A stretch of DNA of 20,383 nucleotides from a virus, in the IMG/VR virus record IMGVR_UViG_3300000477_000019, positions 1-20,383 of that record. One strand, given 5' to 3'. Position numbers and translations under genes: made by a program. The notes below the pieces were generated by a model that made no database searches, was not told where the DNA came from, and saw only the letters and a list, made by a program, of their open reading frames with translations. Below are positions 3,978 to 19,462 of the stretch, one piece after another (positions within the stretch are counted from its first letter, which is position 1; each line of letters opens with the position of its first letter).

Positions 3978-4390
3978 AGGAACGCTCCTTCAAGGATGGC
4001 CCTGACCTCACGCCGGTTCTCGGCAAACAGCCTGCTCATCCACGGCCTCGGAAGTACGTTCATGGTTCCGACTTCCAAGTCTCTGCCGTAGAAAAGCGGC
4101 GTCCCCATGTACCCGGCAACCCACTCTGCGTCCCTTGTCATCGCGGTATCCAAGCTGTCCCTCAAATCCCCGAGGCGCTCGGCCGGAGGTTCTCCCGGTG
4201 CTGAAGCCTGGTAGTAGCGGTTCGTGCCAGGGATTTTGTAGAACCGACCTGTCCTTGGTCCGGTCAGCATCCTTCGGCCGACCTGCTGAAGGTAGGTCAC
4301 GGCTTGCGCCACGGCCTCCTCCGCATCCGCAGACATATCCCGCTCTACCTCAATGCGGTAGGACTGAAAGTCCGCGCCGCCCGGCTTCAT
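3974..4390 (-). CDS. HK97 gp10-like head-tail joining protein
   Basis: Encodes 138 residues from the ATG at 4390-4388. This ATG overlaps the upstream TGA by four bases (ATGA) and follows a GAGGGAGGG site. The longer reading to 4417 has no comparable site. The long N-terminal helix (about residues 15-35), a Gly/Pro/Tyr-rich middle (GRFYKIPGTNRYYQASAPGE) and a C-terminal segment with LPRPWMSRLFAE then a helix match the HK97 gp10/connector family, where a loop rich in aromatic and Pro residues followed by xRP(W/F) is typical. These proteins form part of the neck between portal ring and tail tube. The gene lies in a tight cluster of four small neck genes. Confidence 0.8.
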   Translation of the reverse strand: MKPGGADFQSYRIEVERDMSADAEEAVAQAVTYLQQVGRRMLTGPRTGRFYKIPGTNRYYQASAPGEPPAERLGDLRDSLDTAMTRDAEWVAGYMGTPLFYGRDLEVGTMNVLPRPWMSRLFAENRREVRAILEGAFL

Positions 4391-8134: not shown

Positions 8135-9136
8135 TCAGATGCGGCCTGGCTCCTTCTCAAGCGTTTTACGGGCCACGTGCCACGCACTCTCCACGATCGG
8201 GTCCAGATTGCCCACGCGGGGGTCCCATGCGATCCCACGCCGGGCCTCCTCGATCACCGCAACCAGCTTTTCCGGATCCCCTTCTCGCCTCGGGCCGACG
8301 GACTCAGGGATCGGGTGCCCCGTGACCCTCCGGCACGCTTCGATCACCTCACGCACGCTGTACCCGCGGCCCGTCCCCACGTTGTACGCATACCTGTGCT
8401 CCCTGCGTCCAAGGGATTCCATCGCCGCCACGTTCGCCCGGGCCACGTCCGTCACGTGAACGTAGTCCCGCACCGCCGTGCCGTCCTTCGTGTAGTAGTC
8501 ACCGCCATTGATCACGATTTCGGGCCGGATACCCAGCGCTACCTCCAGCACTCGTGGGATCAGGTTGCTGCCTTCCTGCCCCCAGTTGTACACTTTCCCT
8601 TCCAGATCGCAGCCGGCCACGTTGAAATACCTCAGCGACACGTGTTTGATCTCGTTCACGAGAGCGCAGTCCGCCAGGACGTACTCGAACATCAGCTTCG
8701 ACCTCGCGTAGGGGTTGACCGGCATACGCGGGTGCCCTTCCCCTATCGGAAGCGTCTCCCGGTTCACCGTCTGCTGCGGGTATCCATAGACCGATGAGCT
8801 CGACGCGAACACGATCCGGTCGATCCCCCTCCTGCGCATGACCTCCAGCAAGTTGAGTGACCCCGACACGTTGTTCCAGTAGTACCAGGCCGGATCAGAC
8901 TGCGAGTCCGGGATGTTCGTCAGCGCCGCTAGGTGGATCACGTCTCCGATGTGGTACGGCCGCAGTGCTTCCTTCACCTGATCTAGCTGGGTGAGGTCTG
9001 CCTGCACAATGCCCGGCCCGCCAACTCGATCCAACCCCACCACGCTGTACCCTTGCCGCGAGAGCTCCAACACCGTGTGCTGCCCGATGTACCCCGCCGC
9101 CCCAGTCACCAAGACCTTCATCTGCCTGTTGCCCAT
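8135..9136 (-). CDS. galE: NAD-dependent UDP-glucose 4-epimerase family enzyme
   Basis: Encodes 333 residues, the usual GalE length. Start ATG at 9136 lies six bases after an AGGGGG site; an in-frame ATG at 9121 is possible. Seen: the NAD-binding glycine motif at 11-18 (TGAAGYIG), a Ser cluster at 112-115 before VYG, the catalytic Tyr143 and Lys147 in NPYARSK, a NVAGCD step, LIPRVLEVALG, and the GalE-specific DGTAVRDYVHVTD segment. Extended short-chain dehydrogenases of this type invert C4 of UDP-sugars, for example UDP-glucose to UDP-galactose; whether this one prefers UDP-glucuronate cannot be told. It acts in the cytoplasm to supply precursors for polysaccharide or glycoprotein synthesis. 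It lies inside the virion gene operon, between a DNA-binding-like gene and the scaffold, and probably works with the dehydrogenase at 13094-14521. Confidence 0.93.
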   Translation of the reverse strand: MGNRQMKVLVTGAAGYIGQHTVLELSRQGYSVVGLDRVGGPGIVQADLTQLDQVKEALRPYHIGDVIHLAALTNIPDSQSDPAWYYWNNVSGSLNLLEVMRRRGIDRIVFASSSSVYGYPQQTVNRETLPIGEGHPRMPVNPYARSKLMFEYVLADCALVNEIKHVSLRYFNVAGCDLEGKVYNWGQEGSNLIPRVLEVALGIRPEIVINGGDYYTKDGTAVRDYVHVTDVARANVAAMESLGRREHRYAYNVGTGRGYSVREVIEACRRVTGHPIPESVGPRREGDPEKLVAVIEEARRGIAWDPRVGNLDPIVESAWHVARKTLEKEPGRI

Positions 9137-13093: not shown

Positions 13094-14521
13094 TTACGGC
13101 GATACCTCGCCTCTCCCCCAGCCTATGTACTTCAGCCCGGCTTCCTTCACGTTGGTAGGGTTGAGGATGTTCCGCCCGTCCACAACGACTGGTTTGCGAT
13201 CTGAGTCGTGCCTCAACCGGTTTAGCTCCTTCCAGTCTATCCCTGTGAACTCCGGCCAGTCCGTGAGAACCATGACCGCCTCCGCTCCCCGGAGTGCGCC
13301 TTGGATTCCTCCGACTTCTCGATCGAAGTAGGTGATGCGCGGTAGCTGCAATACATCCGCCGCTGACGTGACTGCCATGGGATCGTATGCCTGCACCCAT
13401 GCGCCCAGCTCCACCAGCTTCCGTACCACGTCCACGGCCGGGGAGAACCGAGCGTCAGCTACTCCCGCCTTGAACGCGAGCCCCAGTACCGCGATGGTCC
13501 GCCCGTTCAGGCACCCCATGTGCTTGACCAGCTTGAGGATCGCCCGCTCACGCTGCCGGTCGTTCACCTTCCGGATCGCATACGTGATGTCCATGTCCAG
13601 AAAAAGCTGCTCTCCCTCCGTCAGGAAAGCGTGCGTGTCCTTCGGCAAGCAGGGACCGCCCCATCCAACGCCCGGCCGGTTGAACAGTTGTCCAATGCGA
13701 GGGTCCAGCCCAGCCGCATCCATCACCGTTTCTACGTCAGCACCCATGACCTCGCAGTACTCCGCCACCTCCTGCGCAAAGCTGATTCTCATGGCTTGGA
13801 ACGTGTTGGCGACCTGCTTCATCACCTCGCAGTTCTCCCACGTCGTTTCCTGAACCGGAGGCACGACATAGCCTTTCGGCTTTAGCCCCTCGATCGGTTC
13901 GTCGAACGTCTGCCCCAGGACCCGCGAGTGGAACGCTCGGGAGAGCTCCGCGGCCACCAGGCCTTTCTGCCCAGGCCCCACGCCCACGAAGTACCGCATC
14001 GGATACAACACGTCCTGAAGAGCGTTTCCGGCGTCCGTGAAACACGGGTTCGCGACCACGTGAAACTCGGGGCTCTTGCCGTCTGCTTTCAGCGCATCGG
14101 CTACGAACGCGTCCAGAGCCCGCGCCGTGCCGACGTGCACCGTGCACTTGTCCAGGATCAGGTACTCTCGGCCGTCGATCATGCCCTCCGCGATCTCCTT
14201 CGCTGCCGCGTACACCTGGCTCATGTCCGACAAGCCCGACGGAAGCTCCGGAGTCCAGACCGCCAGCACGATTACCTCAGCGTCCCGTGATCTTAGCCGC
14301 GTATCCGTTGAGAAGAAGATAGACCCTTCCAGTTCCCCGCGCAGCCCTCGTTCGAGTAGCTCCGGCAGGCCCTTCTCGCTCACCGGACAAATGCCCTGCC
14401 TGAGCTGGTCTACCTTGCCACGGTCCTTGTCCACAACCACCACGTCATCTCCCATGTACGCGTGCGCCAGTCCGTATGTGAGCCCGACGTACCCAGCCCC
14501 TACAATCGCCACTCTCGCCAT
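13094..14521 (-). CDS. ugd: UDP-glucose/GDP-mannose dehydrogenase family enzyme with altered catalytic motif
   Basis: Encodes 475 residues from the ATG at 14521 with a strong AAGGAGG site. Three-domain family layout: Rossmann motif GAGYVGL at 8-14, a helical middle and a C-terminal nucleotide-sugar domain starting near AVLGLAFK (345-352). The active-site Cys291 in GGPCLPKD is present, with Lys294 and Asp295, and Lys235/Asn239 in KQVANTF match the usual Lys/Asn pair. Oddly, the usual NPEFL(R/K)EG motif, whose first Glu acts in thioester hydrolysis, reads NPCFTDAG at 158-165, so both Glu are lost. The family normally oxidises UDP-glucose to UDP-glucuronate with two NAD+. This one may use another sugar, work by changed chemistry, or be weak. 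Its neighbours are terminase and portal genes. It probably feeds the same pathway as galE. Confidence 0.9.
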   Translation of the reverse strand: MARVAIVGAGYVGLTYGLAHAYMGDDVVVVDKDRGKVDQLRQGICPVSEKGLPELLERGLRGELEGSIFFSTDTRLRSRDAEVIVLAVWTPELPSGLSDMSQVYAAAKEIAEGMIDGREYLILDKCTVHVGTARALDAFVADALKADGKSPEFHVVANPCFTDAGNALQDVLYPMRYFVGVGPGQKGLVAAELSRAFHSRVLGQTFDEPIEGLKPKGYVVPPVQETTWENCEVMKQVANTFQAMRISFAQEVAEYCEVMGADVETVMDAAGLDPRIGQLFNRPGVGWGGPCLPKDTHAFLTEGEQLFLDMDITYAIRKVNDRQRERAILKLVKHMGCLNGRTIAVLGLAFKAGVADARFSPAVDVVRKLVELGAWVQAYDPMAVTSAADVLQLPRITYFDREVGGIQGALRGAEAVMVLTDWPEFTGIDWKELNRLRHDSDRKPVVVDGRNILNPTNVKEAGLKYIGWGRGEVSP

Positions 14522-17600: not shown

Positions 17601-18386
17601 CTAGAACACTTGCATGTGCTCTTCAGCCAGCTCCAGCACGTTGTCCGGAAGCTGCGTCACCGGCCCGAGCTCGATCAGTTCGTAATCGTATTGCCCTTCG
17701 CCAAGGCTTCTCTCAGCTCCGTACCCGTGCACCCCACCATACAGGAGCACCATGTCCAAGTGCTCCTTCGTCACGTGCGGGTTGCGCAGGATACCCACGA
17801 TGCTCCAGAGCTCCGCCTCCTCTATGTACATGGATCGCTTGAGCGCCGACCTCGGACCCATGGGCGTGATCACATGGATCGGCCTCTCCTGCCAGCCGTC
17901 AGGACGGTTCGTGGGTTCGCCATCCTTGATGATCGGCACCCAGTACGGCTTGACATAGATGAAGTTTGCCAGCTTACTCCGGAACACCGGGACCTTGACC
18001 TGCTTCGCCTGGTACAACTGCCGGGCGCAGTCCTTCAGGTGAGCCTTGATCGTTCCCGCCCTCACCACGAGCCGCCCTTGCTTGTCCATCTGGAACCCGC
18101 TCGACACGCGCTTCATGTCCGCGGTGTCCTCGCGTGTGGAGGATGTCTCCTCCTCGATCTCCTCAGCGTCCTTCGCCCAGTAGATGCTTCCCTTGACCTC
18201 GGACTCTATGTCGGGTAGAGCTCGCGCTCCCTCTGGTGCTTTCTCAGGGGCGCGTGATTCGAGCCACTTGGAGACCACATCCTCTTCCATCGGCACGGAA
18301 CCTATGATCCTCCCCTCGAAGCGCATCCGTAGCAGATACGCATCCCAGGTGATGCCTTCCGTCTGTTTCTCTGCCTTCGTTGCCAT
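17601..18386 (-). CDS. Unknown protein, weakly RAMP (Cas7/Cas6)-like
   Basis: Encodes 261 residues from the ATG at 18386, behind AGGAGG. I do not recognise the family with certainty. Seen: an early strand RMRFEGRIIGSVP (about 20-32) followed by a KWLESRAP helix, an acidic linker (about 70-90), a GTIKAHLKDCARQL helix, a RSKLANFIYVKP strand, GPRSALKRSMYI, and near the C-terminus a Gly-rich loop with GAERSLGEGQYDY. A strand-helix start, a central G-(T/S)-x-K-(G/A) helix and a late Gly-rich loop recall RNA-binding RAMP folds of type III CRISPR proteins. That is inference from pattern only. It has no HD or nuclease motif. It lies between the repeat array and the methyltransferase, in a place where late phage genes of unknown role are common. 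Confidence 0.7.
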   Translation of the reverse strand: MATKAEKQTEGITWDAYLLRMRFEGRIIGSVPMEEDVVSKWLESRAPEKAPEGARALPDIESEVKGSIYWAKDAEEIEEETSSTREDTADMKRVSSGFQMDKQGRLVVRAGTIKAHLKDCARQLYQAKQVKVPVFRSKLANFIYVKPYWVPIIKDGEPTNRPDGWQERPIHVITPMGPRSALKRSMYIEEAELWSIVGILRNPHVTKEHLDMVLLYGGVHGYGAERSLGEGQYDYELIELGPVTQLPDNVLELAEEHMQVF

Positions 18387-18389
18387 CCT

Positions 18390-19180
18390 GCCTCCTCTCG
18401 CCTGTTACCTTCCGCTTTCGCGGCCCGACTACTTTGCGTCGCGGGACAGTTCAGCCCGGCACGCTTCTCGCCTTCCTTGCGTCTCTCTTCGCATCACACC
18501 ACTCGGCTTCTCGCCTCCGCTTCACTTCGGCTCGCAACTGCTCGCATCTCGGTTTCGTCGCAGCCCAGTACTCTTCGTACCTCTTCGCCCTACCGATTCG
18601 AGTCATCACTCGCTCCGCTGCGTTGCAATTCGTGACAAGTCGTCACTCGCCTTCGAGCCAAGTGCTTTGCGTCTCGAACCTCGGTCCCGATCAAAGCCGT
18701 TACGTTTCGGTCCTCGCTTCCGATGCAGTGCTCCGCATTGGGTTCCGATCCTCGGTTCAGTTCCACTCGGACCGCCGCTGTACATATCGCTACTCGCCTC
18801 CAATCCGGTACTGTACGACGCGTTTCTCGCGTTCTCGCCACGACAAGGCACAACGCTTCGCTTCTCGCGTTCTCGACAGAACAACCCGTGTCGCATCTCG
18901 CCTACAGTCCGGTTCAGTACAAGCCGCCTCTCGGGTCCTAGACGGGACGTGCCGAGCCGCAACTCGGTTCCTTCTCGGTACACATCGTCCCTCGGTTCCA
19001 CACCATCCCATGCCGATGCAAAGCACATCGCTTCTCTCCTTCAGCGCATTACCAGGCACCGCACACCGAATCTCGCCTCCGCAACAGTTCTCAACGCTTC
19101 ACTTCTCGCCTTCGTACCTTCCCGGTTCACTACGCGCCTCGTCTCCTGTGTTCTCTTCTCCGTAGCACAACTCTCGCGTC
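18390..19180. repeat. Degenerate tandem array, ~33-bp period with 11-bp sub-rhythm
   Basis: The stretch between the genes at 18386 and 19130 holds no gene I can support. Read on the plus strand, a CTCG(C/G) core recurs at 18646, 18680, 18713, 18751, 18793, 18826, 18864, 18897, 18930, 18963, 18991, 19072, 19105, 19138 and about 19173. Seven of the steps are exactly 33 bases; others are 28, 34, 35, 37, 38 and 42. A less regular part lies at 18390-18640. Units share CTCG-(C/G)-x-TxC, often CCGGT(T/A)C eleven bases on, then an ACGC or GCCGC step. Copies are too diverged to be a recent duplication. Because 33 is a multiple of three, long empty frames appear on the plus strand. The array also runs under the last ~16 codons of the gene at 19130-19462. 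No conserved repeat/variable spacer split, so not a normal CRISPR. Confidence 0.7.
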
Positions 19181-19462
19181 TCGTATCTTCCTCTCCGTTA
19201 ACCCGAGATGAATGGCAAGCCAGCGGTCGGTGCTCCTCCAGAACTTGCGGATGAAGCGCAGCCGCGTGTCGCTCATCTCGTCGATCACCGCGCACGCGTG
19301 CGAGTACCGCTTTTCCTGCCAAGCGATCTTCACGTACTCGGGGTCCTCGTCGAACCTCCGGGCCAGGCGTTCCACCTCTCCTGGCTTTGGATCTCTGGCC
19401 TTTGCCCTCCTCTGCACTTCCTCCAGCAACGCCGTGTTCGCTAGGCTTATGCCTGAAGCCAT
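19130..19462 (-). CDS. Small basic protein, possible DNA binding
   Basis: Encodes 110 residues from the ATG at 19462, behind GGAGGTGG. It is helical and highly charged (VERLARRFDEDPEYVKIAWQ; DTRLRFIRKFW). The C-terminal part (TDRWLAIHLGLTERKIRDAR) could be a helix-turn-helix, and the last 15 residues are mostly Arg. It ends in TAG followed at once by TGA. Its C-terminal codons lie inside the repeat array, so either the array spread into the gene or the gene end was made from it. No family recognised; a regulator acting on the array is a natural but unproven idea. Confidence 0.6.
   Translation of the reverse strand: MASGISLANTALLEEVQRRAKARDPKPGEVERLARRFDEDPEYVKIAWQEKRYSHACAVIDEMSDTRLRFIRKFWRSTDRWLAIHLGLTERKIRDARVVLRRREHRRRGA

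Follow-up and report, generated by a model that had tools for sequence, protein, structure and literature searches.

What is an ordered stretch of roughly 750 nt, devoid of any conserved gene, doing in a phage genome? The stretch lies between positions 19130 and 18386 of the window, by which we mean the whole 20,383-nt DNA that was analysed (positions 1 to 20,383 of the IMG/VR virus record IMGVR_UViG_3300000477_000019). This virus record carries terminase and major head protein genes, and the closest terminases to its own are below 30% identity. (Sugar-nucleotide genes also stand among the structural genes, namely an NAD-dependent epimerase and a UDP-glucose dehydrogenase, at 8135-9136 and 13094-14521 on the minus strand.) The original prediction, made from the letters alone, matched the stretch to no known element. 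We find that it does match one: the feature is very probably a guide array with its Vipr gene, belonging to VIPR, which a 2026 preprint (PMC13142463) describes as a phage RAMP, Vipr, acting with vrRNAs of alternating GGY and NN. We therefore refer to the neighbouring gene as vipr.

Anatomy of the array and fold of the adjacent protein

The array abuts vipr and precedes it, on the minus strand, which is also the strand of the flanking genes (Table 1). The tetranucleotide CTCG (CGAG on the transcribed strand) recurs in the region in 33-nt steps with shifts of 5. An ordered, gene-poor array of about 750 bases with recurrent CTCG, 33-base steps and deviations of about 5 bases had been predicted, and autocorrelation against mononucleotide shuffles confirmed it, with z-scores of 8.9 at lag 5, 8.0 at lag 33, 9.8 at lag 38, 6.7 at lag 66 and 6.8 at lag 71. 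The peaks fall at 5, 10 and 15, and at the unit lags 23, 28, 33, 38 and 43 and their sums. The 11-bp helical rhythm that had been proposed alongside is absent from the autocorrelation, in which lag 11 is depleted (z -2.8). Since the signal is a 5-nt comb with 5n+3 unit lags, the rhythm of the array is pentanucleotide, not helical. The suggested check by autocorrelation thus gave a peak at 33 and none at 11. Tandem Repeats Finder did not detect the array, which is not an exact tandem array.

Table 1. Positions, strand and supporting evidence of the features described in the window
Feature	Positions	Strand	Description	Evidence
vipr	17601..18386	minus	predicted 261-aa Cas7-like RAMP with glycine-rich loop GYGAERSLGEG	weak Csm4 match, AlphaFold2, PDB fold matches, family alignment
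vrRNA-like guide array	18387..19143	minus		autocorrelation; HMM segmentation; HMM trained without the window
Unit plan of the array			pentamers G-NN-N-Y; units of 5n+3 nt; GGCGA/CCGA(G) header; truncated G-NN pentamer closing the unit	
End of the array	18387..18402	minus	last header-like GGCGAG merging into Shine-Dalgarno-like AGGAGG, then vipr ATG	direct sequence reading
Clean 38-nt unit	19040..19077	minus	header GGCGA and guide g2 (19040-19072), AT.GT.CG.CC.TA.CG.AA	

Under a hidden Markov model (HMM) of five cyclic positions, the array resolves into G-N-N-N-Y pentamers interrupted by GGCGA or CCGA headers. The resulting units are 28, 33 or 38 nt long (that is, 5n+3) and start with GGCGA(G) or CCGA(G), and the guides of the window are short, at 5-8 NN pairs. 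An HMM trained on the arrays of 27 relatives, with the window left out, finds the window array on the minus strand only, with a maximal segment at 18771-19143. Its best 300-nt window scores +38.9 nats in the array, against -19.2 elsewhere on the minus strand and -24 on the plus strand, and the array score has a z of 10.7 relative to dinucleotide shuffles of the array. The two halves differ: the 18771-19143 half is clean, whereas the 18387-18770 half has a weaker fit to the clade HMM, irregular unit lengths and misplaced pentamers. The array is also crossed, on the plus strand, by long antisense open frames of 356 and 261 aa (18184-19254); they are probably a by-product of repeat composition, because the unit lengths are not multiples of three.

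A structured leader RNA ahead of the gene at 17601 had also been suggested. This idea survives in part, in that the array is linked to that gene and is probably transcribed as RNA ahead of it. From the way in which the array runs into the Shine-Dalgarno-like AGGAGG, we infer that array and vipr share one transcript; a promoter scan found none. The folding energy of the array RNA is ordinary (z 0.26), so the label 'structured' is unsupported, and a structured leader was rejected. A conserved structured 3′ tail was likewise not found in the array, in which only the short GGCGA/CCGA headers recur. Rfam gave no match in the window or in 15 relatives, and therefore no known ribozyme or hammerhead was seen in them.

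The vipr reading frame is intact and its glycine loop conserved. Neither Pfam nor PHROGs gave a match for this gene or for the gene at 19130. The protein has a weak, sub-threshold similarity to Csm4 (E 0.018), which covers the glycine-rich loop. Its AlphaFold2 model, built with 52 aligned relatives, reached a pLDDT of 90.8 and a pTM of 0.86, and the closest folds in the PDB are those of type VII Cas7 (Z 12.8, rmsd 2.5 over 138 residues) and Csm3 (Z about 12). As modelled, the protein is a Cas7-like RAMP. Its likeness to the Cas7 family suggests that it would polymerise along a guide RNA, disrupting the pairing at regular intervals; the array has a 5-nt register, against 6 nt in Cas7 filaments. 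Unlike a CRISPR effector Cas7, this single small RAMP stands in a window without cas genes, CRISPR repeats or spacers. CRISPR-Cas was accordingly rejected: there is no exact tandem array, and scans of the window genes in Pfam and PHROGs gave no cas family match, leaving the sub-threshold Csm4 similarity of the RAMP. TIGR-Tas systems also have phage-borne tandem guide arrays that are not CRISPR, and the window array resembles them in these respects. However, Tas proteins carry a Nop domain, whereas the window protein has no Pfam match and is predicted to fold as a RAMP.

Linkage of gene and array in two clades

A search of viral contigs with the 17601 protein as a single sequence found no relatives, but an aligned profile did. 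In three gut phages, a distant relative of the gene is directly followed by an array of the same rhythm, and the profile scan of viral contigs added 73 further loci, for a total of 77 with the window. Of these 77 loci, 74 have a 5-nt-comb array no more than 1.5 kb from the gene, and at distances above 3 kb such an array was seen in 0 of 76. For at least two of the three loci without an array, the contig stops at the gene or shortly after it. The array is downstream of vipr in most relatives, and upstream in the window. (The clade B contigs L107 and L108 have several arrays scattered on both sides of a single vipr gene, at distances that exceed 3 kb.)

The arrays form two clades. In clade A the pentamer is G-C-A-N-N and each unit contains one additional G, giving units of 5n+1. 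A GCANN array with 5n+1 units directly follows a distant vipr relative in the unannotated human gut phages L002, L003 and L004, and the isolate-derived IMG/VR records L060, L062, L064 and L068 likewise carry one after such a relative. Clade B, to which the window belongs, has the pentamer G-N-N-N-Y, CGA junctions and units of 5n+3. Its pooled consensus is G-NN-N(G)-Y, or (G)YG/NN, and the two bases after the G are nearly flat. The clade comprises about 45 virus contigs, and a pattern search of 84,980 cellular genomes did not find it. Across 40 clade B loci, the only broadly common gene is vipr (a 569-aa protein recurs in nine), and no conserved vap gene was found. That vipr alone is broadly common indicates that gene and array are the unit that is kept.

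A one-nucleotide-skip code in one guide-target pair

For clade B, every guide was decoded by each of 18 rules (position by skip) and matched to the collected phage DNA, with arrays masked. The sole clear excess among the 18 rules in this clade was obtained when NN was taken as the two bases after the G, with a 1-nt skip (31 perfect matches versus 9). In a second test of this rule there were 6 perfect matches, versus 0.9 +/- 0.9 (maximum 3) in 20 shuffles. An apparent excess for a skip of 3 in one scan was attributed to unmasked array sequence, and for clade A guides none of the rules gave enrichment with these targets.

Most of the excess, and with it most of the decoding evidence, comes from a single guide, L094:3994 (3994-4060), carried by a relative with a Vipr that shares only about 36% identity with that of the window. 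It decodes to CA.GG.TA.GC.GG.GA.CG.AG.GA.GG(.GA), which corresponds in frame to HGYAGERSDG(E), the glycine loop of Vipr. The guide matches the glycine-loop codons of vipr in five other phages at 20 of 20 core positions (22 of 22 with the tail), and every skipped base of the target falls on a codon wobble base. In 2.9 million viral contigs, the 20-base core occurs in six, each time in a vipr gene. The vipr gene of L094 itself encodes the same peptide, but with three mismatches at read positions owing to the synonymous codons AGA (Arg) and TCC (Ser); a phage that has to evade its own guide would be expected to show such a difference. To judge from these sequence matches, the 1-nt-skip code is thus shown in one clade B guide-target pair. 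Another clade B guide, L080:4042, has one mismatch of 18 at a site in L097 (L097:1922), which encodes TDPPYGVE, a DNA methyltransferase-like motif, on the other strand; a second site is L164:12524. These matches are not wobble-phased and could be due to chance.

For the window's own guides g3, g18, g2 and g14, matches among all viral contigs are near background, with the exception of a cluster for g2. In eight contigs, the decoded target of g2 corresponds to codons for FRYGRT[IM], a conserved motif of portal-like proteins; the matches are antisense and wobble-phased, in mostly divergent genes. (These proteins are named P22-like portals by sequence resemblance, not by a database match.) As clusters of similar size occur with g14 in non-wobble phases, the portal match is suggestive, a lead only.

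Relation to VIPR and alternative explanations

The preprint depicts VIPR as encoded mainly by viruses, with guides that read double-stranded DNA with a 1-nt skip at the codon wobble and that are used against competing phages, including guides against other phages' vipr genes (PMC13142463). The window system is similarly phage-encoded and has a single small RAMP, as predicted, with a glycine loop, adjoined by tandem pentanucleotides in which fixed bases alternate with hypervariable NN. Through L094, clade B also appears to share the NN pairs with one skipped base at the codon wobble, and a guide against other phages' vipr genes.

As a yardstick, we took the VIPR locus of Escherichia phage SUSP1, which is of type II, and located its YNNGG arrays; ALH47069 is the gene there that matches the published layout. 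In hmmsearch, ALH47069 comes first among the SUSP1 ORFs with the broad family profile, at a marginal E of 0.0019, and the clade profile gives it an E of 0.24. The fixed bases differ, being (G)YG/NN in clade B and GGY/NN in SUSP1. The SUSP1-type vrRNAs have 9-16 repeats, are about 100 nt long and end in an invariant 3′ tail (PMC13142463), whereas the window has shorter guides, of 5-8 NN pairs, in short abutting 5n+3 units split by GGCGA/CCGA. The missing tail excludes only a SUSP1-type architecture and not VIPR, because the preprint describes other architectures: it counts seven types, and mentions staggered arrays as well as related consensus sequences among them. It also presents the vap accessory gene as typical but not universal (PMC13142463), and in the 40 clade B loci none was found. 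The (G)YG/NN clade may already be among the seven types. We nevertheless tentatively put forward, at somewhat less than even chances, that clade B represents a VIPR type not described so far. It would consist of a RAMP standing alone, with a shifted (G)YG/NN triplet and compact GGCGA-delimited guides but no accessory gene, and would be spread among environmental phages that otherwise have little in common. Its guides would be directed at the invariant glycine-loop codons in the vipr genes of rivals, and the owner's gene would be recoded at Arg and Ser to escape.

Besides the leader RNA, the original prediction proposed a DNA element, an ordered surface to which proteins would bind in packaging, replication, partition or late control. 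An ordered, long, non-coding array a few genes upstream of the terminase genes would suit such a role. However, the 11-nt helical rhythm is missing, the signal is strand-specific and sits beside a RAMP gene in phages that share few other neighbours, and the arrays of relatives lie up- or downstream of that gene, not beside packaging genes. That NN positions are the most variable also fits guides rather than iterated binding sites, and we consider a DNA element highly improbable. The position of the window array, upstream of vipr and running into its ribosome-binding site, could instead suggest a VIPR-derived array that serves the phage itself, with Vipr binding its own leader repeats to control its own expression and no foreign DNA as target; the window guides, for which targets are not established, are compatible with this. 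It is nonetheless very unlikely, given that the array is downstream of vipr in most relatives, that the L094 guide matches foreign vipr genes at 22 of 22 positions and avoids its own, and that self-control leaves the hypervariable NN positions unexplained. A degraded array, in which vipr was kept and the guides decayed, would account for the poorer clade-HMM fit, irregular unit lengths and misplaced pentamers of the 18387-18770 half. The clean 18771-19143 half, the intact vipr frame and the conserved glycine loop make this reading, too, unlikely.

Under the preferred reading, a VIPR guide array with its Vipr gene, the order of the array reflects the 5-nt register in which a RAMP binds its guide RNA. 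The minus-strand transcript would carry a series of guides, with the GGCGA/CCGA headers and truncated G-NN tails separating neighbouring guides. Vipr subunits would align side by side on a guide, each of them gripping the fixed (G)YG bases of one 5-nt repeat and leaving the two variable bases (NN) exposed. Double-stranded target DNA would be bound by successive NN pairs that leave out one target base between them, and each subunit would thus read two target bases in every three. Through such binding, genes of competing phages would be repressed at the level of transcription.

VIPR, which has been proposed as the ancestor of CRISPR RAMPs on the strength of one 2026 preprint (PMC13142463), was here recovered from a raw sequence anomaly, which adds about 115 further virus loci and tests its noncontiguous code in a clade whose fixed triplet differs. 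The L094 pair offers a clean natural example, in which a guide would read the most conserved codons of a rival's vipr, ignore the wobble bases and spare its own gene. Self-avoidance would rest on Arg and Ser, for which sixfold codon degeneracy allows synonymous changes at the bases that the guide reads. The pair makes inter-phage targeting and self-avoidance directly testable.
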